Source of the DNA: Porticoccaceae bacterium
GTDB lineage: Bacteria > Pseudomonadota > Gammaproteobacteria > Pseudomonadales > Porticoccaceae
Direction: 5' to 3'
Length of the DNA stretch: 64,000 nt
Assembly: GCA_021773435.1 (NCBI GenBank)
Contig: JAJFKC010000010.1
Location: forward strand, 124,001 to 188,000
Part shown: positions 4,207-32,877 of the stretch, one piece after another
How the letters are laid out: each line of letters begins with the position of its first letter
Numbering within the stretch: position 1 is the stretch's first letter
Notes under the pieces: model-generated
Told to the model about the DNA's origin: nothing
Databases searched by the model: none
What the model saw: the letters and a program-made list of their open reading frames with translations, nothing else
Position numbers and translations under genes: made by a program

Positions 4207-5130
4207 GTGATAAAAATTAGACAACTTCAGTTTACTTATCAAGGAGCTGATCAACCGGCACTGGCAAATATTAATCTTTGCGTGAAATCGAAAAGTATAT
4301 TTGGCTTATTGGGCCCTAACGGCGCGGGTAAAACCACGTTATTGTCGATGTTAAGTGGCTTGTTACCACGCCCTGCCAGGTCGATTTTTATCGACGATTG
4401 TGATTTATCCTCAGGCAATAATCCGTGCAATTCAGGCCTATCGTTAGTGCCGCAGGACTACGCTTTTTATCAAAACCTGACGGTCAAAGAAAACCTCAAC
4501 TTCTTTGCAGGTGTGCAGGGCATGGCGAAGCCAGTTTTAAAGACCAGGCTTGGGGAGGTGTCTGAAATTACCGGGCTTCAACAACGTCTCAATCAAAAAG
4601 CAACAACGCTTTCCGGTGGCCTTAAGCGGCGCTTAAACCTGGCTATTGGTTTATTAAATAGCCCTAAACTATTACTGCTGGATGAGCCAACCGTTGGTAT
4701 TGATCCTCATTCGCGGCATTTTATTCTCGAAGCTATCAGAGAGATTAACCGACAGGGCACGACGATTATTTATACCTCGCATTATATGGAGGAGGTGGAA
4801 GCGCTGTGTGACGAAATTGCAGTCCTGGATAAAGGCCAGGTGGTGGTCGAGGGCTCTTTGCAAGCGCTATTGCAGGCCCAGGGCAAACGTTCGCTTTGTG
4901 TTGATCTCATTGATTTACCTGAAGCACAGCAACTTGAAGCACTCGGTAAAATGCCGGGTCTTACCCATAACTCGCTACGGCTCGATATCCCTGTCAGTTC
5001 CGAGGTGGAGATACTGAAAGCCCTCGAAACACTACAGGAGCAGGAGTTAGGCATCGGTCGTATCCATTATGGGGCACATAATCTCGAAGAGTTGTTTCTG
5101 GATATTACTCAGCGCACATTGCGGGATTAA
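4207..5130 (+). CDS. ABC transporter ATP-binding protein of the DAR module
   Basis: A 307-residue ATPase with Walker A GPNGAGKT (residues 36-43), signature LSGG (135-138), Walker B LLLLDE (155-160) and a C-terminal extension of about 85 residues as in ABC-2 drug/lipid exporters. The start is GTG at 4207 with AGGA about 7 bases upstream; the overlapping ATG is followed at once by a stop. The permease gene begins one base after its stop. It probably powers export or membrane placement of a pigment precursor or product, since ABC pairs of this type accompany flexirubin/DAR gene sets. It opens the plus-strand operon 4207-8729. Confidence 0.9.
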   Translation: MIKIRQLQFTYQGADQPALANINLCVKSKSIFGLLGPNGAGKTTLLSMLSGLLPRPARSIFIDDCDLSSGNNPCNSGLSLVPQDYAFYQNLTVKENLNFFAGVQGMAKPVLKTRLGEVSEITGLQQRLNQKATTLSGGLKRRLNLAIGLLNSPKLLLLDEPTVGIDPHSRHFILEAIREINRQGTTIIYTSHYMEEVEALCDEIAVLDKGQVVVEGSLQALLQAQGKRSLCVDLIDLPEAQQLEALGKMPGLTHNSLRLDIPVSSEVEILKALETLQEQELGIGRIHYGAHNLEELFLDITQRTLRD

Positions 5131-5131
5131 C

Positions 5132-6337
5132 ATGAAGCGTCTCTGGTATTTCATACACAAAGAGCTTTTGTTATTAGGGCGAGATCTGCACGGTTTGTTG
5201 CTGCTCTTTGTTATGCCCGCCGTGTTTATTCTTATTATGACCTTTGCCTTGCAAAATCAGTATGCCGATGAAGGTCAGGTAAAAATTGACTATTTCCTTC
5301 TCGACCAGGACGACAGCCCCTTAAGCCGAGAGCTGATCGAGTCATTGGCTCAAATCGATAATCTGCATCGTTTGTCTACAGCTATGAATGAGCAAGCGCT
5401 TCGAGCGGCGACCGCCGAGGATGACAGCAAATTCTTAATGATTATAAATAAGAATTTTGAGCAGCAATTACTGGCTGGTAAGTCGGCCTTGCGACTGGAG
5501 ATTGCTCCCGGCACCAAGCCGGTGATGGTGCACTTAGTCAACGCGCAATTGCAAAATATCCTGGGGCAGCTGTCGCTAAAAATACAGTTGCAAGCCTTAT
5601 TGGCGATGGGTGATCCGGGGGCGGTAGAGACGCTTACGCAAGTTGATGGTAAGGCTTTGGTTACGGTTCAGTCCCTCTATAAAGGTTCTTCAGCTGATAA
5701 AGATAGCCAGGAGAGGCCGTCTTCGGTACAGCAAAATGTCCCTGGCTGGCTATTGTTCTCGATGTTTTTTATTGCCATTCCTTTGTCGAATACACTAATA
5801 AGTGAACGCAGCCAGGGTACTCTGGCACGTTTGCAGAGCATGAACTTTCCCTATTACACGATATTGCTCGGCAAGCTCATCCCTTATTTTTTGATCAACC
5901 TGCTACAGGTCGTCGGTATGTTATTGATAGGGGTTTATCTGGTGCCAATGCTGGGTGGTGAACGCCTCAATCTTGGTAATAGCTTTGCTGGCCTGGCGGT
6001 GATTTCTCTTAGTGCGAGTTTTGCTGCCGTTGCCTACGCATTATTTATAGCGCAATTAGCCAGGACTACGGAGCAAGCTACCATTTTGTCTGGGGTATGT
6101 AATATCATCATGGCCGCTCTCGGTGGGGTGATGGTGCCACGGTTTGTTATGCCCCCGGTGATGCAGGACTTGAGTGTTTTTTCGCCCATGGCCTGGGGCC
6201 TGGATGGCTTTCTTGACATATTGCTACGCAATGGCGGTGTAAATGCAGTGCTTCATGAAGCGGCTGCTTTATCGATCTTTGGTCTGGGCCTGTTGTTGTT
6301 ATCGGCATTTTTATTCTCCCGACCAGGCAAGCACTAA
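5132..6337 (+). CDS. ABC-2 type transporter permease of the DAR module
   Basis: A 401-residue inner-membrane permease: one N-terminal membrane helix (about residues 20-40), a large loop of roughly 170 residues, then about five helices toward the C terminus. This is the usual ABC-2 layout. The start at ATG 5132 fits the family (MKRLWYFIHKELLLLGRDL) and lies immediately after the ATPase stop. An in-frame upstream extension overlapping the ATPase gene is unlikely to be used. It pairs with the ATPase as a half-transporter dimer; the substrate is inferred from context to be an aryl or resorcinol lipid. Confidence 0.87.
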   Translation: MKRLWYFIHKELLLLGRDLHGLLLLFVMPAVFILIMTFALQNQYADEGQVKIDYFLLDQDDSPLSRELIESLAQIDNLHRLSTAMNEQALRAATAEDDSKFLMIINKNFEQQLLAGKSALRLEIAPGTKPVMVHLVNAQLQNILGQLSLKIQLQALLAMGDPGAVETLTQVDGKALVTVQSLYKGSSADKDSQERPSSVQQNVPGWLLFSMFFIAIPLSNTLISERSQGTLARLQSMNFPYYTILLGKLIPYFLINLLQVVGMLLIGVYLVPMLGGERLNLGNSFAGLAVISLSASFAAVAYALFIAQLARTTEQATILSGVCNIIMAALGGVMVPRFVMPPVMQDLSVFSPMAWGLDGFLDILLRNGGVNAVLHEAAALSIFGLGLLLLSAFLFSRPGKH

Positions 6338-6364
6338 TATTAATGAAGTTTTTCTATTGGACAG

Positions 6365-6628
6365 ATGTACATGAATCTTGATGAGCTGAAACAAACACTT
6401 AAAGAGCTGATAGTGGAAGAGTGCGATGTTGATTTAGAGGCCCATGAAATTGACGACGATGAACGTTTGATCGGTAGTGATGGTCGTATGGATCTGGATT
6501 CCCTCGATGCTCTGAGTATTGCTCTCGAAGTCAAAAGTCGTTACGGCAAGCGCATTGACGGAGGCAATGAAACCCGTATGGCCCTGGGTTCGATCTCAGC
6601 GCTAGCCGAATTTATTCTGGCCGAGTGA
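6365..6628 (+). CDS. Acyl carrier protein of the DAR module
   Basis: An 87-residue acidic protein with the phosphopantetheine attachment motif DLDSLDAL; the serine is residue 46. A second in-frame ATG lies two codons on (6371), so the exact N terminus is open. It lies between the ABC permease and a ketosynthase and is the third ACP of the whole cluster. That supports a separate acyl chain built for the resorcinol part. Activation would come from the phosphopantetheinyl transferase at 32152. Confidence 0.9.
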   Translation: MYMNLDELKQTLKELIVEECDVDLEAHEIDDDERLIGSDGRMDLDSLDALSIALEVKSRYGKRIDGGNETRMALGSISALAEFILAE

Positions 6629-6634
6629 GTCTCG

Positions 6635-7813
6635 GTGACTAAGCTTGCCAGGTTAGTGGGCGTGGGTGTGATTAGCGCACAGGGCAAGGGCTGCGAGAAT
6701 AATTTGCGAGGCCTGAATGCAGGTGAAGGTCTTTATCGAAAGCACACGCTAGATAACTTTGATGAGATCGTAGAGGCACCTTATTTATCCGCACATCAGG
6801 ATAGCTTGTCGTCAAATAACGACGAGGCTAATCAAAGCCAATCAGCGATCAAGCATCTCGAATACTTACTTGATTGCGCAGTGCAAGAGGCATTAAGTGG
6901 CGTATCTCTTACCGACGAGGTCCGCAAAACTATACCCCTGTTTATCGGCTCATCGTCCTACGGTATCGGTATCGGTGAAGCGCTGTATCAACAAGCTCTT
7001 AAGCAAGGTGAAGCCGGTACCCCGGTACCGTTGGATGGTTTTACGCAAGTCGGTCATCGCCTGCGCCAAGGTTATGGTCTGCTAGGGCCGGATTACGCCT
7101 ATAACACTGCCTGTACCAGCAGCGCCAATGCTTTACTCAGTGCTGTTAGTAGTATCGCCCAGGGACACAGCGAATACGCTTTGGTGATAGGTCTTGAAAC
7201 CTATAACCTAACGACCCTCGCTGGGTTTTACGGCATGCAATTATTGGCACCTGAAATGATGCGGCCTTTTGATAAACATCGGCAAGGTTTGGTCCTGGGT
7301 GAAGGCTGTGGGGTTTTACTATTGCAGGCCGCTGAAGCAGGCAGTAAGGGTATCACCATTCGAGGTGGTGCCAGTCGTTGCGATACTCACAGTATTGCCG
7401 CGTCAAATCCCGATGGTTCAGCCATCGCTGCGGTGATGGAGGACGCTCTTGAGCAATGCGGTGTGGATGCTGAGGATATTATAGCCATTAAGGCACACGG
7501 TACTGGAAGCCCCCTAAATGATGATGGTGAAGCAGCGGGGATGAAACGGGTGTTTACGAGGGTGCCGCCGTTTTTCTCGCTTAAATCCTATATTGGCCAT
7601 ACTTTGGGTGGCTGTGGTGCTATTGAAACTGCGCTTACAGCGGTTTGTCTGGCTGGGCAAAAGATACCTGCGAGCGCGGGTTTTGAATGTGCCGACGAAA
7701 ACCTGGGGCTTGCGCCCATCCACCAGGCACAGACTGCGGGGCAAGGTTATTACATGCTTAACTTTTTTGGTTTTGGCGGTAACAACTGTAGTCTTATTAT
7801 GCATATTCAATGA
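6635..7813 (+). CDS. Beta-ketoacyl-ACP synthase (FabB/FabF type) of the DAR module
   Basis: A 392-residue decarboxylating ketosynthase. The Cys-His-His triad is present: Cys160 in NTACTSS, His288 in KAHGTGS and His322 in GHTLGGCGA. The start is GTG at 6635, 6 bp after the ACP stop. It should extend an acyl chain on the neighbouring ACP with malonyl units. The next gene encodes a ketosynthase-like protein without the active cysteine, so the two may form a KS/chain-length-factor heterodimer like ApeO/ApeC. Compared with FabF, the region around residues 30-75 is unusually polar. Confidence 0.9.
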   Translation: MTKLARLVGVGVISAQGKGCENNLRGLNAGEGLYRKHTLDNFDEIVEAPYLSAHQDSLSSNNDEANQSQSAIKHLEYLLDCAVQEALSGVSLTDEVRKTIPLFIGSSSYGIGIGEALYQQALKQGEAGTPVPLDGFTQVGHRLRQGYGLLGPDYAYNTACTSSANALLSAVSSIAQGHSEYALVIGLETYNLTTLAGFYGMQLLAPEMMRPFDKHRQGLVLGEGCGVLLLQAAEAGSKGITIRGGASRCDTHSIAASNPDGSAIAAVMEDALEQCGVDAEDIIAIKAHGTGSPLNDDGEAAGMKRVFTRVPPFFSLKSYIGHTLGGCGAIETALTAVCLAGQKIPASAGFECADENLGLAPIHQAQTAGQGYYMLNFFGFGGNNCSLIMHIQ

Positions 7814-7850
7814 CGATGCTTAAGGCCGACACGCAGGGAGTGAACTTTTG

Positions 7851-8729
7851 ATGTTGGAGGTGATATCCCTGGGTGACCATTACGCTCCCGTCGATGATTC
7901 GGAGGGTTTGCCCGAATTACGAGATGAAGTTAATCGTATCTGCGGTGAACGCTTCCGTCGGATTGATCGCTTTATTCAGCTGTGTTTATTAGGCTCAGCT
8001 CGTTGTGTGAAAGGGCAAGCTTTGGGTAGCCAGACGGGACTTTATATTGGCTCTCGATTTGCGGCTATATGCAATACGATCAAGGTGCAGGAGCAAATGT
8101 TTGTCCATGGTCAAATTCCGAAGCCGGCAAATTTTATCAATACGCTGAGTAATTCGGCAGGCTACTACGTAGCGCGAAATCTTAAGTTGCAGGGCAAAAA
8201 CATTTTTGTCTCCCGTGGTAATAATTCTCTGGAAGCCGCTCTGCAATTAGCTCAGCTGGATTTGCGGAGCGCTCAAGTTGATCAAGCGCTGATTGGCGTG
8301 GTTGATGAAGGCGTCCCGGGGCAAGCTACTCATTGTCGACGTATGGGTATTGCCGAGGACACAGCGCTTGGCGAAGGGAGTCAGTGGTTTTTAGTTCGTA
8401 GAGAGTCTGACTCACCGTGCCTGGCCAGGATTATCGACGCACGGACTTTGAGTGATGAAAGTGCGTTACGAGACTGGTTAAGTAGGTATCAAGCGCAGCA
8501 TGAAAACACCTATATTTATTTGGACAAAATTGCTGAACTTCCTGTCAACGGGTTTAACCTGGATATTGAAGCGTATGAGCTGCCGCTAAACTATTACCCA
8601 TCGCGGACGGCGGGTGTTTTATCTCGTTTTATAAAGGAAAAAACCGGTCGGCAAGAAAAGGCTGCGCTCATTACCTTGTGTGGTGATGATGCGGGGCGCA
8701 GTCATGTCACTTATACGGTGGTGGGCTAA
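7851..8729 (+). CDS. Ketosynthase-like protein lacking the active-site Cys (chain-length-factor-like)
   Basis: A protein of about 292 residues resembling the N-terminal half of a ketosynthase. The segment NTLSNSAGYYVAR (about residues 97-109) corresponds to the nucleophile loop of active enzymes, but Ser stands where Cys is expected. The C-terminal His residues of a thiolase fold are also absent because the protein is short. ATG at 7851 is preferred (GGGAG upstream); a TTG one codon earlier is possible. By analogy with ApeC it probably pairs with the KS encoded just upstream and sets chain length. Its own catalytic activity is unlikely. Confidence 0.75.
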   Translation: MLEVISLGDHYAPVDDSEGLPELRDEVNRICGERFRRIDRFIQLCLLGSARCVKGQALGSQTGLYIGSRFAAICNTIKVQEQMFVHGQIPKPANFINTLSNSAGYYVARNLKLQGKNIFVSRGNNSLEAALQLAQLDLRSAQVDQALIGVVDEGVPGQATHCRRMGIAEDTALGEGSQWFLVRRESDSPCLARIIDARTLSDESALRDWLSRYQAQHENTYIYLDKIAELPVNGFNLDIEAYELPLNYYPSRTAGVLSRFIKEKTGRQEKAALITLCGDDAGRSHVTYTVVG

Positions 8730-8816: not shown

Positions 8817-9824
8817 CTATTGCCGGATAGCCTGGCGTAATTGTCGATAACACTCGCCTTCCATGTCGGCGACCAGTAGCAGTTGGTCGGCAAGTTTGTC
8901 GTAATCGAGTTCAATTCGACCCTTAAGCATTTTTGCAGAGAACAACGCGAACCGACGCCACTCATCCCCGGTATCGGTAAATCGTTTCGAGACCTCATCG
9001 AGTTTATTGTTGTCCATTAGGGCAGCGCTTTCCTGCAAGAAAGAGGCATAGAGAAAGCGAAAACCGGCTCCGCCAGTACCAATTTCTTCCTGCATCCGAA
9101 CCATATGGCCAATCACCAGTTTGTTATAGCTTTCCTTTTTTTCGTGGCTATTGCCCATGGCCCGCAACTTTCCAGCAACACAGCGAATGCCGCGCACGCC
9201 GATAACGGGTAAGGGTGTGCGCAACATCATATTCACGCTTGAGTTAATGGCTTTGCGAATAGCTCCGGGTAAATCCCTTTGAGTGGGAATGTCTTTGGGG
9301 TAATAAATAAGACCTTTGGGTGCCAGCATGCCTTTAACAAAACGGGCCTTTTCAAGGGCCTGGTAACTGCTCTGTACAGGTGTCTCGAAGGTGGGGTCGC
9401 TGAGCAGGTAGTTTTCACCTTCATAACCATAAGCGACTAAATTATGGGCATTAAAATGAAAGCGCATGTCTTTTGGAAAATAAGGCAGCCAGTAAACAGA
9501 GGCCTGCATACCCACAGGACGTCCCTGATCGAGATGATCGTTCAACGTTTGCATACCTTGTTTGCTGTCTCGAAAGCGCTCGAATTGCATGGTGATACCG
9601 AGCCGGGAGGCAGCACCTTTTATCAGACGCCCCGGGGGCATGCGGTAAGCGATCATGGGCATGCCGCTGATCTTGGCTAAGGGGATGTAAGCAAAGGTCA
9701 AGGCGTTGGCTATACCAAAGACCATGGGTTCAGAAATATCGAGGCCGTTATGGCGCAGTAATGCCGACATAGCACCGCTTTCGCAATGGGCGGTCTGGCG
9801 GTGATCGAAATTGATTTCGGGCAT
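8817..9824 (-). CDS. BtrH-like acyltransferase (BtrH N-terminal domain + DUF4872-like)
   Basis: A 335-residue protein whose N-terminal part has a papain-like Cys/His/Asp arrangement: Cys14 in HCESGAM, His127 in HFNAHNLVAYGY and Asp143 in LLSDPTF. BtrH of butirosin biosynthesis moves an acyl group from an ACP to an amino sugar, and relatives are common in flexirubin/DAR clusters. Here it may transfer an ACP-bound polyene or fatty acyl group to a hydroxyl, for example on the resorcinol, or release a chain. It lies two bp downstream of the small unknown gene and in one operon with darB. The acceptor is inferred only. Confidence 0.8.
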   Translation of the reverse strand: MPEINFDHRQTAHCESGAMSALLRHNGLDISEPMVFGIANALTFAYIPLAKISGMPMIAYRMPPGRLIKGAASRLGITMQFERFRDSKQGMQTLNDHLDQGRPVGMQASVYWLPYFPKDMRFHFNAHNLVAYGYEGENYLLSDPTFETPVQSSYQALEKARFVKGMLAPKGLIYYPKDIPTQRDLPGAIRKAINSSVNMMLRTPLPVIGVRGIRCVAGKLRAMGNSHEKKESYNKLVIGHMVRMQEEIGTGGAGFRFLYASFLQESAALMDNNKLDEVSKRFTDTGDEWRRFALFSAKMLKGRIELDYDKLADQLLLVADMEGECYRQLRQAIRQ

Positions 9825-9826
9825 GC

Positions 9827-10234
9827 TTATGAGTCTTCTTTGGGCATAGATCGTAGCTCTGCGGCACTTAAACCCAGCGCTTCCTGGTATCGAGCGAGTT
9901 TATTATCCGTTAGCCTCGAAAATGGTTCCGGCTTTATATGACGCCTTACCTGCCATTTAAAAAACCCGGTACTTTGTGCCAGTACGGAAATGTCCATGCG
10001 TTGGTGATACATGTGATATTCCAGGGGGGCGCTTAAGCCTTGTTCGACGCGACGGCGAGCATCTTTATATAAGGTTTCAAATTGGGCAATGGCCTGATCC
10101 AACACGACTTCTTCCGCCTCCCAGCCACTGGACAGGGCGACCGTATATTCGCCATCTTCATCGATGACGTAGAGCGGTTTCTTTTGTCCTTCAAAAGCTG
10201 CCGACTGATCCTGGGGGACTTCGTCCTGCTTCAC
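9827..10234 (-). CDS. Conserved small protein of DAR clusters, possible helix-turn-helix
   Basis: A 135-residue soluble acidic protein I do not recognise by function. The N-terminal half is acidic and includes a beta-like stretch (PLYVIDEDGEYTVAL). The C-terminal part, MDISVLAQSTGFFKWQVRRH then KPEPFSRLTDNKLARYQEAL, has the helix pattern of an XRE-like HTH (LAxxTGxxKWxVRRH). It touches darB upstream (consecutive coordinates) and btrH-like downstream, so the three are surely co-transcribed. It could be a regulator or a structural partner of DarB; the sequence does not decide. Confidence 0.65.
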   Translation of the reverse strand: MKQDEVPQDQSAAFEGQKKPLYVIDEDGEYTVALSSGWEAEEVVLDQAIAQFETLYKDARRRVEQGLSAPLEYHMYHQRMDISVLAQSTGFFKWQVRRHIKPEPFSRLTDNKLARYQEALGLSAAELRSMPKEDS

Positions 10235-11410
10235 TTACTCGGCCTGCTCGCCGGTCGATTGACTATCGCACACGGTCAGCAGCATAAAGGCGGTCGAAAA
10301 ACGGCCACTTTCTGGCACATAGCAAAGGATGGTCTGGCCCGCTTGAAGGCGCCCCGAATGGTATAGCTCATCCAGAATAATATAAATCGACGCTGAGCCG
10401 ATGTTGCCTTTGGTGGTGATATTGGTAAACCAGCGCTCGAACGGGATTTCGAAATTAACCCGCGCCATACCATCATAGACTTTTTGGCGGAAAAACTTTG
10501 ATGAGTAATGAGGTAGAAAATAGTCTACATCGTCGGGTTTGAGCGACTTGGTCGTCATTATTTCTACTAAGGGCTTTTCAATCGTGTAATTAATAATATG
10601 CTCGTTGAGCAATTTTACGTCTTGTTTTACGGCGAAAACAGAATTCGGAAGCCAGGTATCTGGTGCTAACTGCTGCCAGCCGACCAGCTTGCCATCGGCC
10701 GTTTTCTCGGCACCACTGTACATGCAGGTGTCCATTTCGTGGGCATAGGAGCGTTGCACCATCCATTCAATACGGAGGGACAGGCCCTGTGGTTTTGGCT
10801 GAGCTTGCAGTAACACCGCGCCGGCTCCGTCGGAGAGCATCCAGCGTAAAAAATCTTTTTCAAAGGCTAGTTCCGGTTGTTTCTCCAGGGCTTCAATATT
10901 GCCCGCGACCTCCTGTTCATACATGGCAGCCCGCATCATGGTTGATGCGGTTTCTGATCCGGTAGCCACGGCATTTGAAAACTCGCCACTGGCAATACCC
11001 AGGTAGGCATATTTCATGGCGGTCATACCTGCCACGCAAACACCTGCAGTTGCGACGACTTCACAACAAGGTTTGCCCAGTTCTCCGTGAACCATCACTG
11101 CGTGATTGGGCACCATCTGGTCTGCTAACCCGGTGCCACAAACCAGGCATTGCATTGTGGCTAAATCGAAATCGTCGCTTTGCAGTTTTTCTACCGCTTC
11201 GGCAGTCAGTTGGGCATTGGTATGGGTTGGCTGCCCGGTCGTTCTATCGACAGCATAGTGGCGGCTTTTTATGCCATTGCTGCGGGTCACAATGGCTCTG
11301 GCTCGCGAAGGTTTGCTACCCACCTGACCGAGCACAGCTTCCATTTCGGAGTTGCTGACGGGGTCGTTAGGTAGCACGGCGCTTATATCGGTAATGTAAA
11401 CAGACTTCAT
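10235..11410 (-). CDS. darB: DarB-like ketosynthase (KAS III type), dialkylresorcinol-forming
   Basis: A 391-residue KAS III/FabH-type enzyme. The triad is Cys125 (GVCVAGM), His301 (LPHYSS) and Asn336 (KGNIGSA). DarB enzymes condense two acyl thioesters head to head into a cyclohexanedione, which is then aromatised to a resorcinol. The length (longer than FabH, about 320) and the neighbour darA upstream support DarB over a general FabH. The gene overlaps nothing and is followed directly by the small unknown gene and the BtrH-like gene. Polyketide starter use instead of resorcinol formation is the main alternative. Confidence 0.85.
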   Translation of the reverse strand: MKSVYITDISAVLPNDPVSNSEMEAVLGQVGSKPSRARAIVTRSNGIKSRHYAVDRTTGQPTHTNAQLTAEAVEKLQSDDFDLATMQCLVCGTGLADQMVPNHAVMVHGELGKPCCEVVATAGVCVAGMTAMKYAYLGIASGEFSNAVATGSETASTMMRAAMYEQEVAGNIEALEKQPELAFEKDFLRWMLSDGAGAVLLQAQPKPQGLSLRIEWMVQRSYAHEMDTCMYSGAEKTADGKLVGWQQLAPDTWLPNSVFAVKQDVKLLNEHIINYTIEKPLVEIMTTKSLKPDDVDYFLPHYSSKFFRQKVYDGMARVNFEIPFERWFTNITTKGNIGSASIYIILDELYHSGRLQAGQTILCYVPESGRFSTAFMLLTVCDSQSTGEQAE

Positions 11411-19828: not shown

Positions 19829-19839
19829 TTTGCCTCCAC

Positions 19840-23098: not shown

Positions 23099-23502
23099 GC
23101 CATGAAACCCAGTTTTTCAAACAGAATGGCTGGTGATTCGAGACACATTTCTTCGGTGCTCATATCTACAGCTACCTGGATGGTATAGCCTCGGGTCAGA
23201 CGTTTTGAGGTCAGGCTGTCGCGGATCTCGTAATCTATTTTGAGGCGGTTTTCCCATTCACTGATCGCTGCTTTTACGGTGATTTTCTGGTTGAAAACAG
23301 TGGGTCCTGGATAGCGGATACGGAGATCGATGACCGGCCAGGCATAGCCTGAGTTCTTCATTTGCAAGTAGTTGTAATCAATTTTGTCAAAGAGCACACA
23401 GCGGGCCAATTCAAAATATTTTACATAGTGGCCGTGCCAGGTAATGGCCATCATGTCTACATCGTGAAAAGGAATAGTGAGTTCGACCTCAGCTTCATGC
23501 AT
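23095..23502 (-). CDS. Acyl-CoA/ACP thioesterase, 4HBT hotdog family
   Basis: A protein of about 135 residues from ATG 23502. Earlier in-frame starts exist but lie inside the ammonia lyase gene, and the family begins here (MHEAEVELTIPFHDVDMM). The motif FHDVDMMAITWHGHYVKYFE is the 4HBT active-site helix region, with the second Asp as likely catalytic residue. It occupies the place of ApeK and may remove stalled chains or release the polyene for transfer. It overlaps the lyase stop by 8 bp. Confidence 0.82.
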   Translation of the reverse strand: MHEAEVELTIPFHDVDMMAITWHGHYVKYFELARCVLFDKIDYNYLQMKNSGYAWPVIDLRIRYPGPTVFNQKITVKAAISEWENRLKIDYEIRDSLTSKRLTRGYTIQVAVDMSTEEMCLESPAILFEKLGFMA

Positions 23503-25192: not shown

Positions 25193-26125
25193 TTATTCAG
25201 AGTTTTCAGATTGAGGCTCCCAATAATTATAAAAATTATTCCACTGCAAAGGAAAGCGGGTGGCGTAATGAGTCAGGCGTTCAGCGTATTTTTGTGCCCA
25301 CTGAGACACATCTGCCTCTCTGGTTTTCCGCGATAACCGTATTTTTTCGGCAAAGGCTTCAAAAAATATTTGATAGCCTTTGCAGTCTCTTACACAAAAC
25401 ATTAAATATACCGGACAACGCAATACCGAGGCGAGAATATAAGGTCCCTGGGGAAACCGGGCCAGGCTGTCTAAAAAATTAGCGCTAGTTTGCCTGCCGC
25501 CGCCTATGGGTATGCGATCCCCGGATGTGGCAATCACCTCTCCGGCATCGATCTTTTCCTGTAGCAGTATGGCTGTGGCGGGTGTGACTTCAGTCACCTG
25601 AATCAGGTTGAGGTGATTGTCGTTATCGATTTGTTTCATCAGACGGTTAAATTTTTCTGCTTCTGTAGAGTGCACCAAAATATTCAATTTGACCGCGTGA
25701 CTGGCGTTTAACAGGGCACGACATATTTCAAGATTGCCGAGGTGGGAAACGATGACCAGTGCCCCGCAGCCTTTATCCATCAGCTTTAAGAAATCATCTC
25801 GCTGATGAAAGGCGACGTTGTCGTAGTTAAACGCGCCACTCCAGGCCGCTAATCTGTCGAGTAAATTGCGCGTGAATTGTAAGAAGTGTTTGAAACTCCA
25901 ATAGCTTAAATTAGCATTTTCCGGAATGCCGCCACAGGCTTTGACTCGATTGAGATAGTCCAGGGAGGCCTGGCGAGCAGACTTTCTAGTCAGGAAGAAA
26001 TACAGGACGACAGGATAGGAGCACAGCTTTAAGGCCCACCAGCCGATCCAACGGTGGACGAAGAACATAAATTTTAAGCCAACAACAGCGCCTGCTTCCT
26101 GCACTTGAGACCAATGCCTGGCCAT
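25193..26125 (-). CDS. LpxL/HtrB-like lipid acyltransferase of the aryl polyene cluster
   Basis: A 310-residue membrane-associated protein with an HX4E active-site motif (His128 and Glu133 in SHLGNLEI), as in LpxL/LpxM late acyltransferases. An N-terminal hydrophobic helix (about 14-45) anchors it. In several APE clusters this domain is fused behind the glycosyltransferase as ApeJ; here it is a separate gene 12 bp downstream. It probably attaches the polyene acyl chain to a glycolipid core. Confidence 0.82.
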   Translation of the reverse strand: MARHWSQVQEAGAVVGLKFMFFVHRWIGWWALKLCSYPVVLYFFLTRKSARQASLDYLNRVKACGGIPENANLSYWSFKHFLQFTRNLLDRLAAWSGAFNYDNVAFHQRDDFLKLMDKGCGALVIVSHLGNLEICRALLNASHAVKLNILVHSTEAEKFNRLMKQIDNDNHLNLIQVTEVTPATAILLQEKIDAGEVIATSGDRIPIGGGRQTSANFLDSLARFPQGPYILASVLRCPVYLMFCVRDCKGYQIFFEAFAEKIRLSRKTREADVSQWAQKYAERLTHYATRFPLQWNNFYNYWEPQSENSE

Positions 26126-26137
26126 TGCTATCTCCTC

Positions 26138-26914
26138 TTAGTCGGTCTGTAGTGGGCGCAGTTTGCGCTTTGTTAATTTACGGGCGACTAAGCGTGGCAA
26201 ACGCCGCAACATACCAAAAAATAGGGTGGCGTGCATTTTGCTGATAGCGAGATTATCTCGCCAGGGAGAAAAATGGGAAATACCATCGACAGGGTAGGAG
26301 ACCTGGGTGGGGAGGTTGATGACTTCGCCGCCACACCAGACCCAGTGGACCGCGATTTCTGATTCGAATTCCATGCGATTACCCATGGCTTGCTCATCAA
26401 TCAGCGCCACAGTTTCCTTAAGTGGATAAAGCCGAAAACCGCACATGGAGTCTTTCACTGCCAGAGACAGGGAGTTGATCCATACCCAAATATGCGTCAG
26501 GTAACGGGCATAGTAGCGATGTGCCGGGACACTGCTATCGTATATCGGACAGCCGCAAATCAATGCGGCGGGCTTGTTCTTGCCCATCGCCAGAAAACGC
26601 GCCACATCTTCAGTGGCGTGCTGGCCATCGGCATCTATCTGCAAGGCGTGGCTGAAACCCTGGGTTTTGGCCTCTCTCAGTCCTGCTTTCAGAGCCCCGC
26701 CTTTGCCCCGATTGGTGGGCAGTCGAATGATTTCAGTGCCTGGGTCATCACTGGCTAGTTTTTGCAGTACCTTAGCGCAAACTGAGTCGGAGCCATCGTC
26801 CACCAGGATGATGGGTAATCGCGCTGTCAATAAGTGAGCCATGGTGGCGGTGATAGCCTGCTCGTGATTGTATACCGGCACGATAATACAAGGCTTGAAG
26901 TCTGGATCGCTCAC
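26138..26914 (-). CDS. Family 2 glycosyltransferase of the aryl polyene cluster
   Basis: A 258-residue GT-A fold enzyme. Its N terminus IIVPVYNHEQ, the VDDGSD at about 38-43 and the DADGQH metal-binding motif at about 94-99 match dolichyl-phosphate-sugar-like GT2 enzymes. No membrane domain follows. It probably adds a sugar to the lipid carrier of the polyene. It overlaps the ligase fusion by 4 bp, and the acyltransferase follows; the two together cover the domains of a fused ApeJ. Confidence 0.83.
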   Translation of the reverse strand: MSDPDFKPCIIVPVYNHEQAITATMAHLLTARLPIILVDDGSDSVCAKVLQKLASDDPGTEIIRLPTNRGKGGALKAGLREAKTQGFSHALQIDADGQHATEDVARFLAMGKNKPAALICGCPIYDSSVPAHRYYARYLTHIWVWINSLSLAVKDSMCGFRLYPLKETVALIDEQAMGNRMEFESEIAVHWVWCGGEVINLPTQVSYPVDGISHFSPWRDNLAISKMHATLFFGMLRRLPRLVARKLTKRKLRPLQTD

Positions 26915-28701
26915 GTATTTTGACCCAGTACAATACGGCCAGTGGCATGGGGGCCGAGATCGGAATAATAAGTAAAGTCGATCTTTTGTTTGGCTGAATC
27001 GTATTGTAGTTCGAGGGTGATTTTCTGACCCGGATGGATGATCTGTTTGAACTTGATGACTTCAAGGCGCAGGAAGTCTTGCTTCAAAGTAAACATCTGG
27101 CGGGCATAATGATTTGCCCAATGCACTTGAACAACGCCCGGTAAAATGGGGGCTTCGTCAAAGTGACCATCAAAAAATAGCAGGTCTTCCGGTACCTGTA
27201 GTTGCAAGCATAGATGTTCCGCGCTGGGGCTGTGGCGTTCCAGCTCTACAGGCAGCTGCGGGCGTGCTTGCTCCGTTGTCTTGACGAACAAATCGAGCAG
27301 CGTTTTTTGTTCCAATTTGCCTTGCGAGTTGATCGGGAGTCGTTCTACATATCGCCACCGACGGGGTAGCAAAGGTCGCTCAAAGCTTTGTAAAAGGTGT
27401 TCTCTGAGCGATTCATTGAGGTGGCGTTTACCTTTGTCGCTCATAAGTTTTTCTGCTGCAGTGGACAAAACCACCACAGCGGCAATTTCTACCCGCTGAC
27501 CGTCAAGCATCAAAAGGCGAGCAGCCTTCACAAAAGGGTGTTCGAGCATGCAGGTTTCCATTTCATCCAGAGAGGTACGCTTGCCTTCGACTTTGACAAT
27601 ACGGTCAGCCCTGCCGAGGAGGGTAAACTCGCCGTGATTATTAAAACGCACTCGGTCTGCAGTCTTCAGCCACTCGACCGAGTCTGGTAAGTGATCTGAG
27701 CACACTGCAAGGGTGTCATCACTATTGTTTTTACGCACCTGAACCCCTGGCATAGCTTGCCAGAAGGCTTCATCAGCGGGGTTTTGTTGACGCCAGGCAA
27801 TACCTCCGGTCTCTGAACTGCCGTATACCTCGGATATAGCCACCCCGAATCGCTCTCTGGCAAGCAGACTGGCGTCTCGGTGTAGCGGTGCCCCGGAGCT
27901 GAAAATAGCCGACATTTTTTTTAGGGTATCGCCATCAAGCTGAGCTGGAATCCGCGATAAATGGGTGGGGCTTGAGATCAGAGCCAGGGGCCAATCCAGC
28001 CGAGCTCGGAATTTGATTTCTTCGAGGTATTCACAGGCCTGGGCATCAAAGCAGTGGCCCGCGGCCAAAGGCCAGAGTACGCGAAACAGCAGGCCATAGA
28101 TGTGTTGATGGCTCACCGTGGCCAGCACCAGGGTCGGCGACGCAGGACGGGTGGCAGATGGTGGCAGGGTAGAGCATAAGTCATTACCCCAAAGTGTCTG
28201 TAAATGCGCAACTTCGCTGCTTAATTGTTTGATGGTTTTGGGAATGGCCTGAGGCTCGCCGCTGGAGCCGGAAGTGTAGACTTTCAGTAATACGGCGTTG
28301 GGATCAATTCTGATATGAGTTAATTCGCTCAGTAGTTGTGGCTTCAAGGCATGAGGCAAAGGCGGTGTTAGTGTAGGCGTTGTCACCAGGTCATCAAAAT
28401 CACCAATAAAGGCATCTACCTGTTTAGCCAGGCCGGCTACCAGAGCCGGTTGTCGGCTACCCGGTAAATAAGCAGTTTTACCCAGGGACCAGAGTGCAAA
28501 CAGGATGGCCGAAAACTCTCCTGCATCGTGGTGGTACAAAGCCCAGTCTTGCTCGTCCCGCTGCTGTAAGAGCTGCCGCCAGGTGGCGACTCGGCTTAAC
28601 CAATCAAGCCAGCTTGATACAGTACCGTTATTGATAAGGACTGGCCAACTGTCGTCACGGACTGCACCCAGTAAGTCTTCGATCGCGATGAAATTAGTCA
28701 T
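26911..28701 (-). CDS. Acyl/aryl ligase fused to a hotdog dehydratase (ApeH-ApeI fusion)
   Basis: A 596-residue fusion. Residues 1-470 form an AMP-binding ligase (P-loop TSGSSGEP at 143-150, then YGSSETGGIAWR and LLGRADRIVKVEGKR), like ApeH, which activates an aryl acid and loads it on ACP. Residues about 500-596 form an ApeI-like hotdog with FFDGHFDEAPILPG, catalytic-type His513. In the E. coli APE cluster these are separate genes. The fusion would keep loading and dehydration on one protein. It follows the COG4648-type membrane protein gene. Confidence 0.87.
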   Translation of the reverse strand: MTNFIAIEDLLGAVRDDSWPVLINNGTVSSWLDWLSRVATWRQLLQQRDEQDWALYHHDAGEFSAILFALWSLGKTAYLPGSRQPALVAGLAKQVDAFIGDFDDLVTTPTLTPPLPHALKPQLLSELTHIRIDPNAVLLKVYTSGSSGEPQAIPKTIKQLSSEVAHLQTLWGNDLCSTLPPSATRPASPTLVLATVSHQHIYGLLFRVLWPLAAGHCFDAQACEYLEEIKFRARLDWPLALISSPTHLSRIPAQLDGDTLKKMSAIFSSGAPLHRDASLLARERFGVAISEVYGSSETGGIAWRQQNPADEAFWQAMPGVQVRKNNSDDTLAVCSDHLPDSVEWLKTADRVRFNNHGEFTLLGRADRIVKVEGKRTSLDEMETCMLEHPFVKAARLLMLDGQRVEIAAVVVLSTAAEKLMSDKGKRHLNESLREHLLQSFERPLLPRRWRYVERLPINSQGKLEQKTLLDLFVKTTEQARPQLPVELERHSPSAEHLCLQLQVPEDLLFFDGHFDEAPILPGVVQVHWANHYARQMFTLKQDFLRLEVIKFKQIIHPGQKITLELQYDSAKQKIDFTYYSDLGPHATGRIVLGQNT

Positions 28702-28732
28702 AGATATTGATTATCGGGCATCGCTTCGGGCA

Positions 28733-29275
28733 TCAGGCATTTCTCATCACCCGCTGCCTCACTAGCCACTCTGCGGCGAAAAGTGTGCCCATGCACAAAT
28801 AGGCGACCAGGCCATTATATAAAGCCCACTGCGCATCTGTACCGTACAGAGTGATGGCTAAGGCGACACTGCCATTTAAGCCAAAAAAACAGCACCATAC
28901 CTTGGTTACCTGGCGGGTATAAATCACGCCCCGTTCTGGTAATTGAGGGTCCTGGAGACGGGCAATTCGCTCAATCATTGATGGTGGGCTTTTTAAACTC
29001 CAGAGAAATAACCCCAGGAAGCTGACACTCACTAAAACCGGATAGAGCTTTAGTGCCAGGGGACTATTGAGCAGCCAGGTCCATACGCCCAACAGCGTTA
29101 ATAAAGGCAGCCAGAACCAATGATTTAGAGGTGATTCACCTAGACTCATCATACGAATTCCGGCGATAACAATGAGCAGTAAAACCAGATGCCGTGCATC
29201 AAAACTTTGCAGTCCCATATAGACAGCCAGGGGATAGAGCAGGGTGATGATCACTAGCACAACGCGTTTAGCCAT
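28733..29275 (-). CDS. COG4648-type inner-membrane protein of aryl polyene clusters
   Basis: A 180-residue protein with about five predicted membrane helices and short loops, plus the family segment SPPSMIERIARLQDPQLPE. Such proteins occupy the ApeG position between the ACPs and the ligase; their function is unknown. Here the gene lies 15 bp after the second ACP and 31 bp before the ligase fusion. It may scaffold the synthase at the membrane. Confidence 0.75.
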   Translation of the reverse strand: MAKRVVLVIITLLYPLAVYMGLQSFDARHLVLLLIVIAGIRMMSLGESPLNHWFWLPLLTLLGVWTWLLNSPLALKLYPVLVSVSFLGLFLWSLKSPPSMIERIARLQDPQLPERGVIYTRQVTKVWCCFFGLNGSVALAITLYGTDAQWALYNGLVAYLCMGTLFAAEWLVRQRVMRNA

Positions 29276-29290
29276 GGCTGTTTTAAGGGT

Positions 29291-29545
29291 TTATTGAGAT
29301 TTCGATATCAGGCTTTCGACGGCATCGACGATATCATCAACGGTGCGAACACTTTTGAAATCTTCGGGTTTGATTTTCTTGCCGGTGAGCTTTTTGAGCT
29401 CTACGACCAGATCAACCGCATCGATACTGTCGATATCGAGATCTTCGTACAGATTCGACGCCAGGCTAATATCGGCTTCGTCCAGTTCAAATAACTCTAC
29501 CAAAACTGTAGTGATTTTGTTTTGAATCTCATCTCGGTCGAGCAT
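29291..29545 (-). CDS. apeF: Acyl carrier protein, second of the aryl polyene pair (ApeF position)
   Basis: An 84-residue ACP with the attachment motif DLDIDSIDAV (serine at residue 40). Start ATG at 29545 shares one base with the stop of the upstream ACP gene, so translation is coupled. Assigned as ApeF by order only; ApeE and ApeF have distinct roles in starter loading and elongation in the E. coli system, and the sequence does not say which is which here. Confidence 0.85.
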   Translation of the reverse strand: MLDRDEIQNKITTVLVELFELDEADISLASNLYEDLDIDSIDAVDLVVELKKLTGKKIKPEDFKSVRTVDDIVDAVESLISKSQ

Positions 29546-29829
29546 TAGTGTTCTCCTTTCCCGTCAGCCTGGGTCGAGGCCTGAGTTTTGACGAAAAGAG
29601 CCAGATTATGCACACAGGCAAAGTGTATTTTAATTTGCTCTGAGTCGGCATCACCCTTGACCCCATAACGCTTTTGCAATGCCAGACCCAGCTCCAGTGC
29701 ATCAATCGAGTCGAGCCCCAGGCCCTCCACAAACAGGGCCTCATGACTGTCAATGTCGGCAATGGCGATATCTTCAAGGTCGAGGGTGTCGATAATCAGT
29801 TGCTTAAGCTCCTGCTCTAGTTCATTCAT
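29545..29829 (-). CDS. apeE: Acyl carrier protein, first of the aryl polyene pair (ApeE position)
   Basis: A 94-residue ACP with GLGLDSIDALEL (serine at residue 41). It is less acidic at its C terminus than the following ACP. It lies directly after the PlsC-like acyltransferase gene with an 8-bp overlap. Assigned as ApeE by order. Confidence 0.85.
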   Translation of the reverse strand: MNELEQELKQLIIDTLDLEDIAIADIDSHEALFVEGLGLDSIDALELGLALQKRYGVKGDADSEQIKIHFACVHNLALFVKTQASTQADGKGEH

Positions 29830-30628
29830 GTAACACTAACTCCTGAGTGAAGTATTGTTCTAAAAAACGCGTCAGCTGACGGGCAGCTCGTGCAGGGGTA
29901 GCTAGATTTCGGAATTCTTGTATATCGAGTGTTGGCCGCAGGATAAGGGAAAAATGCATGCGTCGCTCAGGAATTTGATACCACTTAAGATCTTTGGTCA
30001 ACGTACTTGGCCGGCAATTGATGATGGCCGGGGTGACATCGCTACCCGAGCGTAACGCAATATTGGCTGCACCACGGCGCATTGACAGCGCTTGACCAGG
30101 GCTTGTCCGTGTACCCTCCGGAAAAATTATCAGTGTGTTACCGCGTTTTAGTGACTCGGCCGCTAAGTCAATCACTAGCTCGGGGCTGTCGTTGGCGATG
30201 TACCCTGCCATTTTAATGGGGCCTCTCCTGAAAGGGTTGCTCAATAAGCTACTTTTTACCACGCAGTCGGCCCGTTTAATAAAGGCAATCAGAAATACCA
30301 CGTCAATTAGCGAAGGATGGTTGGCAAAAATAAGTTGGCCTGGGCGATTAAGCTCGCTGCGATCGGGCATGGAGTAAGTTAACACGCCCAGGCCGCGCAT
30401 CATCTCAACAAAAGCGCGGAAGCTGTAGTGGACTAAGGCTTTGGCCCTACGTTCTCGCTTTAAAGCCCCGCCGGGCAAGAGGTATAGCAGAGGTATCGCA
30501 AGCCAGGGCAGGATTAACCCCCCAATGGCGAAGACCAGAAAACAAAGGCCCGTAGCCGCCATGCGCCAATATTTATTGACTAGCGTTAACATCGCTAGAC
30601 TTATTTGTTTTTGTCCAGCGCCAGGCAT
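29822..30628 (-). CDS. PlsC-like 1-acylglycerol-phosphate acyltransferase of the aryl polyene cluster
   Basis: About 268 residues from ATG 30628, chosen because GGAG lies 6 bases upstream; ATG 30655 (weak site) or 30592 are alternatives. A hydrophobic N-terminal pair of helices is followed by NHPSLID (HX4D) and FPEGTR, the catalytic and acceptor motifs of PlsC enzymes. It holds the ApeD position and probably acylates a glycerol- or sugar-linked carrier of the polyene. It overlaps the 3' end of apeC, typical of tight coupling. Confidence 0.83.
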   Translation of the reverse strand: MPGAGQKQISLAMLTLVNKYWRMAATGLCFLVFAIGGLILPWLAIPLLYLLPGGALKRERRAKALVHYSFRAFVEMMRGLGVLTYSMPDRSELNRPGQLIFANHPSLIDVVFLIAFIKRADCVVKSSLLSNPFRRGPIKMAGYIANDSPELVIDLAAESLKRGNTLIIFPEGTRTSPGQALSMRRGAANIALRSGSDVTPAIINCRPSTLTKDLKWYQIPERRMHFSLILRPTLDIQEFRNLATPARAARQLTRFLEQYFTQELVLHE

Positions 30629-31448
30629 GACGGTCTCCAGAGACAATGAGTTCATTATCTTCTGGACTTAGCAGGTACTTCAAAAGGGCTAAGGCCTGTG
30701 GTTCAGGTATCTGTTGATTGAGTGCCTGTTGGTCCAGTACTGGTAGCTCAGGAGCTTTATTGGCACGATCGCCACGACGACTGAGGGGCGCTGGATCGCA
30801 AATTGACAGTGTCAGCTTCTGAGGAGTGTAGCGGTGCGCCTCTTCGTTCAGCTCTGCACTTATCTCAAGGTCAGGGCTTGAAGCCTCAGAACTCAACAAG
30901 AAAGCGATGGCGTAGGGGTATTCAGGTCCAGGATCGTTACCTGTGTAGATCGATGGAACCGGTTCATCGTAAATAATACACAGGATTTCTGAGCAGGATT
31001 GCTCATCCATAATGGCGGCAGCTTCGAGTAATGTCGTGCCGATATCGCCCGCGAGCGCGGTAATGCTGCTTGGGTCCTTTCTGGCAATGGACATGACGCC
31101 GCCAATGGCATTGTGTACTGACAGGCTGAAATGGGTGGGGGATAAAGGTTCTTGCGCAGCCAGCGATTGGAGCAGCCCGACGGTGCGTTCAAGCTCCCCA
31201 TGGCGACTGCTGAACACACAGGGGATTTCAATATCGCTACCTCGCAGCAGCGGGAAGGCTACAGACAACGCCATTTTACCCAGTGAGCTGAGACGACGTC
31301 GCAGCATGGGCGGCACATCGGATATATCTGGAGTACTGCTCACTTCGGCTTGTTTCTGACCCGATGCCCATTGCTGCCAATCTTCCAAAGAGTGAATGCC
31401 GGGCATCCATGCAGACCAGTCTTTAACGGTTAAAACAATAGAACTCAT
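30573..31448 (-). CDS. apeC: ApeC-like ketosynthase homolog, chain-length factor
   Basis: A 291-residue protein with a ketosynthase-like N-terminal fold. At the nucleophile position it has SVHNAIGGVMS with no cysteine, so it is inactive as a condensing enzyme. It is the usual first gene of the APE biosynthetic run and pairs with ApeO to fix chain length. It begins the long minus-strand operon that continues to 14207 or beyond. A hairpin lies in its leader (31458-31476). Confidence 0.8.
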   Translation of the reverse strand: MSSIVLTVKDWSAWMPGIHSLEDWQQWASGQKQAEVSSTPDISDVPPMLRRRLSSLGKMALSVAFPLLRGSDIEIPCVFSSRHGELERTVGLLQSLAAQEPLSPTHFSLSVHNAIGGVMSIARKDPSSITALAGDIGTTLLEAAAIMDEQSCSEILCIIYDEPVPSIYTGNDPGPEYPYAIAFLLSSEASSPDLEISAELNEEAHRYTPQKLTLSICDPAPLSRRGDRANKAPELPVLDQQALNQQIPEPQALALLKYLLSPEDNELIVSGDRHAWRWTKTNKSSDVNASQ

Positions 31449-31457
31449 GGGGCCTCG

Positions 31458-31476
31458 AAAGCACGCGATGTGCTTT
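31458..31476. promoter_or_regulatory. Inverted repeat in the leader of the aryl polyene operon
   Basis: AAAGCAC and GTGCTTT are perfect 7-bp arms around a 5-bp loop, starting 10 bp upstream of the apeC start codon. It could be an operator or an RNA hairpin near the ribosome site. No known regulator consensus is recognised. Confidence 0.4.
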
Positions 31477-31650
31477 TATATACAAAGCAATATGTCTACA
31501 AAACAGCGTGCGCCCTATGCCGGAGAAGGGCGCGATGTCTGTATTGAAATGATCAATAATACTGATGCTACGAGCCAGCAGACAAAAGGAATACAATTGC
31601 GTGCATATTTTACTGGCAAATAAGGTTCAGGCAAGTGTGCTTGAGATCAG

Positions 31651-31678
31651 TTGCCAAGCGTTAACCTTGCGCTATAAT
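31651..31678 (+). promoter_or_regulatory. Sigma-70-type promoter for the PPTase operon
   Basis: TTGCCA (31651-31656), 16-bp spacer, then perfect TATAAT (31673-31678), 35 bp before the small exported protein gene. It would drive that gene and the phosphopantetheinyl transferase. Confidence 0.65.
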
Positions 31679-31713
31679 CAGCTTTTACTAAACACCTGGA
31701 GCGGACAAAGGAT

Positions 31714-32145
31714 ATGAAAACGCGTTCAATGATTATGATATTCACTATGCTGGTACTTTCAACGGTGGCTCAAGCCCGGGATACTAAACACCTGTTTCCG
31801 ATTGCTGAAGCGATGAACAGCGCTGCTGCACAGGAGCAACTTAATAAGAATATTAAATTCTACTTTGGTAAGAATTCGGCAAAATATCAGAAGGCCGTGG
31901 GTACCTATACCGCCAATCGAAAAACCAACGCCTTTAATAAATCGGACGATGAAGCCTGCAGATGGGTCTTTCTGTCCGCGTTAGTGGCGCTCCAGGATCG
32001 AGCTATTGCTGAAGGCGGCAATGCGGTAGTTGATATCCATAGCTATTATAAAAAAGATGCGATGCACAGCGCCGAAAGTTATGAATGTCACGCCGGTGCT
32101 TTTATGTCCGGCGTTGCTCTCAGAGGAACAGTCGTTAAAAAGTAA
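31714..32145 (+). CDS. Small exported protein of unknown function
   Basis: A 143-residue protein with a signal peptide (MIMIFTMLVLSTVAQA then cleavage near ARD). The mature part has two cysteines (DEACRW and YECHAG) that could pair, and a conserved block GGNAVVDIHSYY ... GVALRGTVV. Relatives are sometimes mislabelled as an excinuclease subunit; nothing here supports DNA repair. It is six bp upstream of the phosphopantetheinyl transferase, under one strong promoter, so it may have a cell-envelope role tied to the pigment. Confidence 0.75.
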   Translation: MKTRSMIMIFTMLVLSTVAQARDTKHLFPIAEAMNSAAAQEQLNKNIKFYFGKNSAKYQKAVGTYTANRKTNAFNKSDDEACRWVFLSALVALQDRAIAEGGNAVVDIHSYYKKDAMHSAESYECHAGAFMSGVALRGTVVKK

Positions 32146-32151
32146 ACTGAC

Positions 32152-32877
32152 ATGGGGGCCTCAGTCGCCCTGTGGCTTTGGCCTGATGTAGACCACCTGT
32201 CGAATCTGCAAGTCGAAGAATATGTGCCTGGGTTTAGTGCAAGTGAAAAGCGCTATCTCAATAGTATTAGCGCTAGACGTCGAAGACTTGAATATATTGC
32301 TGGTCACCACTTAATCCGGCAGATGCTGGTCGACCTTATTCCTCTCTGGGATCAAGATCACAGCATTGAGCACCACAAAGGGGCTGCGCCATTCTTGAGC
32401 GGCCCTGACCTCGACGGTATTTCTTTTAATCTCTCACACAGCGGTAATAGGGTTTGTTGCGCTGTCGGGCTTCATTGTGAGCTGGGTTTGGATATAGAGT
32501 TACCTCGAGAGCGTCGTCGAGGTCAACAGATTGCAGAGACTTATTTCACTGAGAAGGAAGCAGAGCGGATAGCCAGGCTACCCTTAACTGAGCGAGGTGG
32601 TGAGTTCTCCCGGGTCTGGACCTTAAAAGAAAGCCTGCTCAAAGCCAAAAGGGAAAGTATTACCAGCAAAAATATCGCTATCGAGTTTCAGCGCCAGATC
32701 GAAGCTCCAGCCAGTGCGAGTTGGTATTGTTATAGTTTTATGCTGGATCGTCTTTATGGTGCGCTGAGCCTCTCATCGCCATTGACCAGGCCTCTTCAGG
32801 TTCAGGTTTACCGTCCTGCCATGATCTCAACGACAATTATTAAGCCCGAAACAATGCTTTATACCCCCCGGTTTTAA
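32152..32877 (+). CDS. 4'-phosphopantetheinyl transferase (Sfp type)
   Basis: A 241-residue PPTase. It has FNLSHSGN, then GLDIELPRE with the Mg-binding Asp and Glu, and FSRVWTLKESLLKA, the Sfp-type signature. It transfers phosphopantetheine from CoA to the ACP serines of the cluster (three ACPs). Position at the edge of an APE gene set is usual. It probably activates both the APE and the DAR ACPs. Confidence 0.9.
   Translation: MGASVALWLWPDVDHLSNLQVEEYVPGFSASEKRYLNSISARRRRLEYIAGHHLIRQMLVDLIPLWDQDHSIEHHKGAAPFLSGPDLDGISFNLSHSGNRVCCAVGLHCELGLDIELPRERRRGQQIAETYFTEKEAERIARLPLTERGGEFSRVWTLKESLLKAKRESITSKNIAIEFQRQIEAPASASWYCYSFMLDRLYGALSLSSPLTRPLQVQVYRPAMISTTIIKPETMLYTPRF

Follow-up and report, generated by a model that had tools for sequence, protein, structure and literature searches.

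Does a locus that carries genes for an aryl polyene (APE) beside genes for a 2,5-dialkylresorcinol (DAR) make one pigment in which the two are joined, or two separate products? The question is raised by positions 4207–32877 of a 64,000-nucleotide stretch of DNA, here called the window, from a Porticoccaceae bacterium (assembly GCA_021773435.1, contig JAJFKC010000010.1, positions 124,001 to 188,000 of the forward strand). A preliminary description made from the letters predicted a hybrid pigment comparable to arcuflavin and the flexirubins; the present analysis supports this, and hybrids of the kind have already been published (PMC3949708, PMC10165715). With a probability of about 0.8, the region is a cluster for the synthesis and export of an aryl-polyene acid esterified to a 2,5-dialkylresorcinol, of the arcuflavin/flexirubin type, and the predicted product, an aryl polyene joined to a dialkylresorcinol, is most likely yellow. 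Gene content, gene order, conservation, the key residues of a few enzymes and the co-occurrence of genes were observed directly.

DarH as candidate link between the two gene sets

The candidate ester-forming enzyme is DarH (8817–9824, minus strand), a BtrH-type acyltransferase which scores 463.6 bits against NF053550 (cut-off 300) and matches PF14399 and PF16169. The NCBI name of this family, 'BtrH-related acyltransferase', agrees with a joining role. Residues C14, H123, H127 and D143 are invariant in all 17 aligned proteins and would be consistent with acyl transfer at a Cys-His-Asp site. In a class sample of 369 gammaproteobacterial genomes, the window's own included, DarH is above cut-off in 18, with weaker matches in three more, and 82 genomes pass the cut-off for the APE ketosynthase ApeO (NF006618). 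Every DarH genome carries ApeO (18/18, Fisher p 3.5e-13), as does every genome with DarB above cut-off (21/21, p 2.1e-15), both tests ignoring relatedness. DarG and DarB lie near DarH in all 18, and darJ in 13; of the five without darJ, three have a contig end close to darH. Four genomes (G019, G077, G224, G302) have DarB-like matches under the cut-off and neither DarH nor ApeO at the thresholds used. The co-occurrence of DarH and ApeO fits a role for DarH as the ester-forming enzyme that would join the two halves. DarH-like proteins at 112–124 bits, far under the cut-off, were seen in another three genomes (G372, G440, G443) and probably belong to another BtrH-type family; among plasmid records, 90 gave matches to distant BtrH-type relatives, and Acinetobacter accounts for 45 of these.

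The two halves might instead yield separate products at one locus, namely a plain APE lipid of the E. coli type and, never linked to it, a free dialkylresorcinol, with DarH acting otherwise. Three of the 21 genomes with DarB above cut-off (G104, G198 and G221, loci L157, L156 and L155) carry a bare darA-darB pair together with ApeO; DarH above E 0.001 was not found genome-wide, nor were DarG, the exporter or darCJK found in the ~19 kb around darB. The presence of both gene sets therefore does not imply a hybrid. The window also keeps apeD and apeJ, which in E. coli attach the APE to lipid. It has, however, the full darG-darH-ABC-darCJK module, and in the class sample DarH occurs only together with ApeO, and we regard two unjoined products as improbable.

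The three genomes without DarH count against a joined product, and so do several further points. The chemistry is drawn throughout from named relatives, and the organism is known here from its genes alone. No tested activity for DarH was found in the literature searched, and no relative of it in the PDB at E 0.01. The APE lipid of E. coli is made without a resorcinol, darA is identified by its position only, and the NCBIfam flavin halogenase models are far off their cut-off for the halogenase-like enzyme of the cluster (141 against 900).

The whole unit is present in two genomes of the window's family (G389, G413) and in G435, a genome of the same order, Pseudomonadales, whose DNA contains, to the letter, locus L068 of Marinobacter changyiensis. 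All three share the apeH-apeI fusion, the split apeJ, the ammonia-lyase, the flavin adenine dinucleotide (FAD) enzyme, the ICMT-like methyltransferase and the fused dehydratase, as well as a small protein and a phosphopantetheinyl transferase. Since the unit recurs in other genera, the gene set is not due to chance. Among the matches listed, the closest named loci are those of M. changyiensis and Pseudomaricurvus sp. HS19 (L069), with DarH at 65%, while the DarH of a metagenome-assembled genome (L067) reaches 67%. DarH is above cut-off in 7 of 78 relatives and, of six genomes examined from the genus, in just two, that of the window and G369; the other four are 66–91% complete. Base composition was tried as a sign of recent gain of the locus, and GC content shows no step. 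An IS3-type transposase-like fragment, recognised by sight, immediately precedes the DAR block (3228–3611, minus strand), and no match to it was found in the relatives' regions fetched. That the cluster is a silent or decaying relic is barely credible: the two-in-six distribution in the genus and the transposase-like fragment would suit it, but the open reading frames (ORFs) are open, darJ, DarH and the fused dehydratase retain their key residues, and other genera carry the same unit.

A scan of genome contigs gave at least 563 DarH relatives, of which the best 80 loci were used; 51 of these had ~10 kb on each side and were treated as full-length. DarG is present in 51/51, DarB and a DarA-like ORF each in 50/51, the ABC pair in 49/51, darC and darJ each in 47/51, a darK-like gene in 28/51 and an ICMT-like ORF in 18/51. 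Of the 51 loci, 22 have darJ and darB in facing orientation and 24 have both in the same direction, so the arrangement in the window is one of two common ones. A match of at least 200 bits to apeO, apeQ or apeR lies within the locus DNA in 10 of the 51 (in L080 and L133 an apeR-like ketosynthase alone, at 39%). In two loci (L119, L133) several apeR-like ketosynthases accompany DarG and DarH, and the locus DNA gave no darB match.

Gene complement of the cluster

The APE set had been described as complete and in the usual ape order from 31448 down to 14207, and this is borne out: the minus strand reads apeC-D-E-F-G-HI-J1-J2-lyase-K-L-M-halogenase-like-N-O-P-Q-R, which matches the gene order of E. 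coli apart from the absence of apeA and apeB and the insertion of two genes. The elongation set (ApeO, C, Q, I and P) is complete at the locus. The chain length factor apeC (30573–31448; PF13723) is followed by the acyltransferase apeD (29822–30655; PF01553), the listed start of which overlaps apeC, by the acyl carrier proteins apeE (29545–29829) and apeF (29291–29545; both PF00550), and by the membrane protein apeG (28733–29275), placed by position, without a Pfam match and conserved in relatives. The apeH-apeI fusion of an acyl-ACP synthetase and a dehydratase comes next (26911–28701; PF00501, PF22818; C-terminal part against PDB 6qsr chain A, E 2.2e-17), then apeJ, split into a glycosyltransferase half (26138–26914; PF00535) and an acyltransferase half (25193–26125; PF03279). 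Between the two inserted genes lie the thioesterase apeK (23095–23502; PF13279; the listed ORF, to 23589, starts too early, and 23502 is the likely start by eye), the LolA-like apeL (22352–23098; NF053544 at 40 bits, under the cut-off of 125) and the RND-type exporter apeM (19840–22299; TIGR03480 at 50 bits, far under the cut-off of 752). The set ends with the LolB-like apeN (17887–18576; DUF3261, PF11659), the ketosynthase apeO (16694–17890; NF006618 at 510 bits, cut-off 407), the dehydratase subunit apeP (16170–16697; PF22817; 6qsr chain B, E 1.3e-9), the ketoreductase apeQ (15433–16158; PF13561/PF00106) and the ketosynthase apeR (14207–15439; NF006587 at 702 bits, cut-off 470). Beside it on the plus strand are a small protein with a signal-like start (31714–32145; no Pfam match) and a phosphopantetheinyl transferase (32152–32877; PF01648), at 48–71% and 33–48% identity, respectively, in G435, G389 and G413. 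Two genes follow the cluster (33240–35431, minus strand), of which the larger was recognised by sight as a GMC-type oxidoreductase and the smaller as its partner.

The first inserted gene (23495–25039, minus strand; PF00221, 519 bits) encodes an aromatic amino-acid ammonia-lyase, the predicted starter-unit enzyme. Its first motif is F-H, against S-H in the aligned tyrosine aminomutase, and its second is NQ, which we take to be of the phenylalanine/tyrosine ammonia-lyase type. With this mixed pattern, the motifs allow no assignment of the substrate; the same mixed pattern has been reported before, as not predictive of it (PMC3992019).

The second inserted gene encodes the FAD halogenase-like enzyme (18587–19843, minus strand; PF04820, 88 bits against 21). 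The closest PDB entry is 3nix (E 5.9e-108), named only as a flavoprotein, followed by the halogenases CndH (1.8e-37), 5buk and PltA. Flavin-dependent halogenases carry a WxWxIP motif and a catalytic lysine; the enzyme keeps WFWLIP, and the lysine in FQFKHG aligns with that of CndH. It passes no curated NCBIfam halogenase model, the best being CmlS at 141.5 against 900. Arcuflavin was found in non-brominated form despite a halogenase gene in its set (PMC3949708), and halogenation in the window is therefore a guess.

The DAR set, described beforehand as darA, darB, an acyl carrier protein, a ketosynthase pair, a BtrH-like enzyme and an ABC exporter, likewise stands, with DarB, DarH and DarG passing curated cut-offs. 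Genes for an ABC transporter ATP-binding protein (4207–5130; PF00005, 95 bits) and an ABC-2 permease (5132–6337; PF12698, 132 bits; the listed start at 5069 is too early and about 5132 likely by eye), darC, darJ and darK, all on the plus strand, face darH, darG, darB and darA on the minus strand. The carrier protein darC (6365–6628) contains DSLD, has no Pfam match and scores 43.8 bits against NF006617, under the cut-off of 70; like apeL and apeM, it has a match that is under a curated cut-off or weak and is named largely by position. A search for DAR-type families settled darB (10235–11410), an StlD/DarB-type ketosynthase at 603 bits against NF005293 (cut-off 450), although it missed the stricter DarB model NF053539 (518.5 against 550). 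The same search gave no model for darA (11519–12439), which has no Pfam or NCBIfam match; five relatives likewise lack an NCBIfam match. We name it the DAR aromatase because of its position and because DarA-like ORFs at 34–62% identity occur in 71 of 80 other loci. A plasmid search with DarA gave only 32–33% matches, on three Streptomyces plasmids. After darA come a divergent gene for a fused ApeI-like and ApeP-like double-hotdog dehydratase (12692–13510, plus strand; identified by hhalign to ApeI/ApeP) and a gene for an ICMT/PEMT-like membrane methyltransferase (13606–14154, minus strand; PF04191, PF04140); both were added to the earlier gene list and are part of the unit. Near the cluster lies a Na+/H+ antiporter gene (908–2095, plus strand; PF00999), of which the Azoarcus arc set also has one; here the neighbourhood is probably due to chance, since the relatives' fetched regions hold no copy.

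From these genes a route may be proposed. The ammonia-lyase would make the starter, cinnamate or coumarate, which ApeH would load onto the ApeE/F carrier, and the polyene would be built by ApeO/ApeC, ApeQ and ApeI/ApeP; it may be halogenated by the FAD enzyme and methylated by the ICMT-like one. Enzymes of the DarB type join a beta-ketoacyl and an enoyl chain. In the cluster DarB would perform this coupling and DarA would aromatise the ring, on chains that may be provided by darJ, darK, darC and the fused dehydratase. DarH would then probably take the polyene off its carrier and attach it to a hydroxyl of the resorcinol, and the pigment would be placed in the envelope by the LolA-, LolB-, RND-like and ABC proteins.

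Origin of the resorcinol chains and possible role of DarG

The ketosynthase darJ (6635–7813, plus strand; PF00109/PF02801) has the catalytic cysteine and both histidines, and darK (7848–8729, plus strand; PF00109, 21 bits) is ketosynthase-like, resembling a chain length factor, and lacks the cysteine. When 13 proteins of each type were aligned together, 13/13 darJ and 0/13 darK had the cysteine; one darJ (G086) lacks the first catalytic histidine, and the second is present in all. A tree of 44 ketosynthases places darJ in a single group (99/100), which falls with ApeO (91/99, under the starred level) and apart from ApeR and the FabF-like enzyme of the genome. Profile comparison was also tried for the origin of darK, and its similarity to apeC and to apeR is about equal.

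The N-terminal half of the fused dehydratase matches ApeI (hhalign E 1.7e-20) and the C-terminal half ApeP (E 3.9e-26), against 0.0066 and 0.034 for the cross comparisons. All five fused copies compared, among them a pair of close sisters, have H17 and E166, and a model built from five sequences (mean pLDDT 68.6) is closest to dehydratase domains of polyketide synthases. As a heterodimer, ApeI and ApeP share one active site (PMC8041823); both chains are present in PDB 6qsr. It is possible, if somewhat short of an even chance, that the fused gene is a spare of the dehydratase pair of xanthomonadin/arcuflavin-type APE sets, which arrived with the DAR module and is not part of DAR synthesis. In a profile search covering 80 of the 82 ApeO genomes, its halves score strongly against proteins of DarB-free ApeO genomes (e.g. 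G335, G101, G362); such genomes are many, and a DAR-specific family is unsupported. Against a spare copy, the fused gene lies in or adjoins the dar block in L068, L069, G389 and G413, and two P-type matches of at least 45 bits occur in 5/21 genomes with DarB against 2/59 without (p 0.012), a threshold set post hoc with some of the matches on different contigs.

A bolder proposal, which we consider rather unlikely, is that the DAR half has its own APE-like chain builder, in which darJ, the Cys-less darK, darC and the fused ApeI-ApeP protein would make both DarB substrates in place of fatty acid synthesis, perhaps as unsaturated chains, with DarG controlling or organising it. Heterologous expression of Chitinophaga darA and darB yielded a DAR (PMC3992019), and the line of darJ, darK, darC and dehydratase is therefore not essential for ring formation.

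DarG (9827–10234, minus strand; NF053536, 166 bits, cut-off 70) is a helix-turn-helix protein by its structural model. An AlphaFold2 model from 16 sequences has a mean pLDDT of 81.6, with block means of 93–97 over residues 51–130. Among solved structures the nearest is the Neisseria protein NGO0477 (3kxa; 83 aligned residues, root-mean-square deviation 2.6), at Z 9.6, a size that the tool warns is commonplace among small helical folds; many Cro/C1 domains follow, along with HppE, an enzyme bearing such a domain. Foldseek found nothing at E 0.001, its best hit, again 3kxa, being at 2.7e-3, and no helix-turn-helix sequence family matched the DarG of the window. HTH_26 (PF13443) is weakly matched in 6 of 16 DarG members (best E 0.0055), and the unrelated SUKH-3 family in 2 of 16, with a slightly better best E of 0.0013. 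Judged by the model, DarG likely has a Cro/C1-type helix-turn-helix fold and possibly binds DNA, which may give the cluster a regulator of its own. The preliminary description had recognised no dedicated regulator, which on this predicted role may be wrong. By record titles, DarG is kept beside DarH in loci from several phyla. A crude count of spaced dyads in 89 darA and 84 ABC-gene upstream regions gave no widely shared operator site: the best dyads were found in 5/89 and 12/84, related genomes included, whereas shuffled sequences reached at most 3 and 5, respectively. Larger counts upstream of darH (25/101) fall in the coding DNA of the neighbouring gene.

Comparison with known systems

The APE-DAR hybrid is an established kind of system, of which the window is a further example combining an E. 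coli-type APE set with a DAR set. In Azoarcus sp. BH72, a homologous DAR gene set and unlinked APE genes lead to arcuflavin, whose ester was proposed from mass spectra (PMC3949708). The published genes (PMC3949708) resemble those of the window in darA, darB, a BtrH-like gene, an acyl carrier protein, a ketosynthase and an ABC exporter on the DAR side, and in a ketosynthase, reductase, dehydratases, LolA and a halogenase gene (arcA, Table 1) on the APE side. Azoarcus differs in its chorismatase starter enzyme (ArcB), its xanthomonadin-like APE set and its unlinked loci (PMC3949708), where a single locus of the window combines an E. coli-type APE set with an ammonia-lyase; no chorismatase (XanB2/ArcB) was found among the ORFs scanned at 4207–31448. 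Gene names also differ, as the NCBI names DarG and DarH do not correspond to Azoarcus darG and darH, for which the domains listed are 'prevent host death' and PilT (PMC3949708). By content, the BtrH-like gene, NCBI DarH, is Azoarcus darE, and NCBI DarG is probably darD.

The flexirubin clusters of Chitinophaga pinensis and Flavobacterium johnsoniae share the ammonia-lyase starter and the combination of APE and DAR (PMC3992019), but in the window the lyase scores 324 with the FlxA model, under its cut-off of 700, and DarG scores 135 with the flexirubin DarG model (cut-off 170). DAR sub-clusters are also described in some Cytophaga-Flavobacterium-Bacteroides (CFB) bacteria (PMC4256081). The E. 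coli cluster has apeC to apeR in the order of the window, and its gene table lists a single apeJ, separate apeH and apeI, and no DAR genes, ammonia-lyase or FAD enzyme (PMC8253772). The preliminary description had the window depart from the standard plan through gene fusions, splits and a halogenase-like enzyme. These features are present, and the departure is weaker than claimed: the apeH-apeI fusion is known in Acinetobacter baumannii (PMC8041823), arcA is published, and the fusions and splits recur in M. changyiensis and the two genomes of the same family.

Also close are the hybrid APE-DAR types V1–V3 of marine Pseudomonas, V1 being an E. coli-type APE set joined to DAR, as in the window (PMC10165715). 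Five Pseudomonas loci (L105, L110, L115, L141, L142) have the ICMT-like gene and the DAR module, with no match to the fused dehydratase within ~10 kb. Pseudoalteromonas strains with a resorcinol hybrid cluster are yellow-orange (PMC9966250). A compact hybrid in one locus, such as that of the window and of M. changyiensis, would open the ester-forming enzyme, the origin of the chains and regulation by DarG to direct testing.

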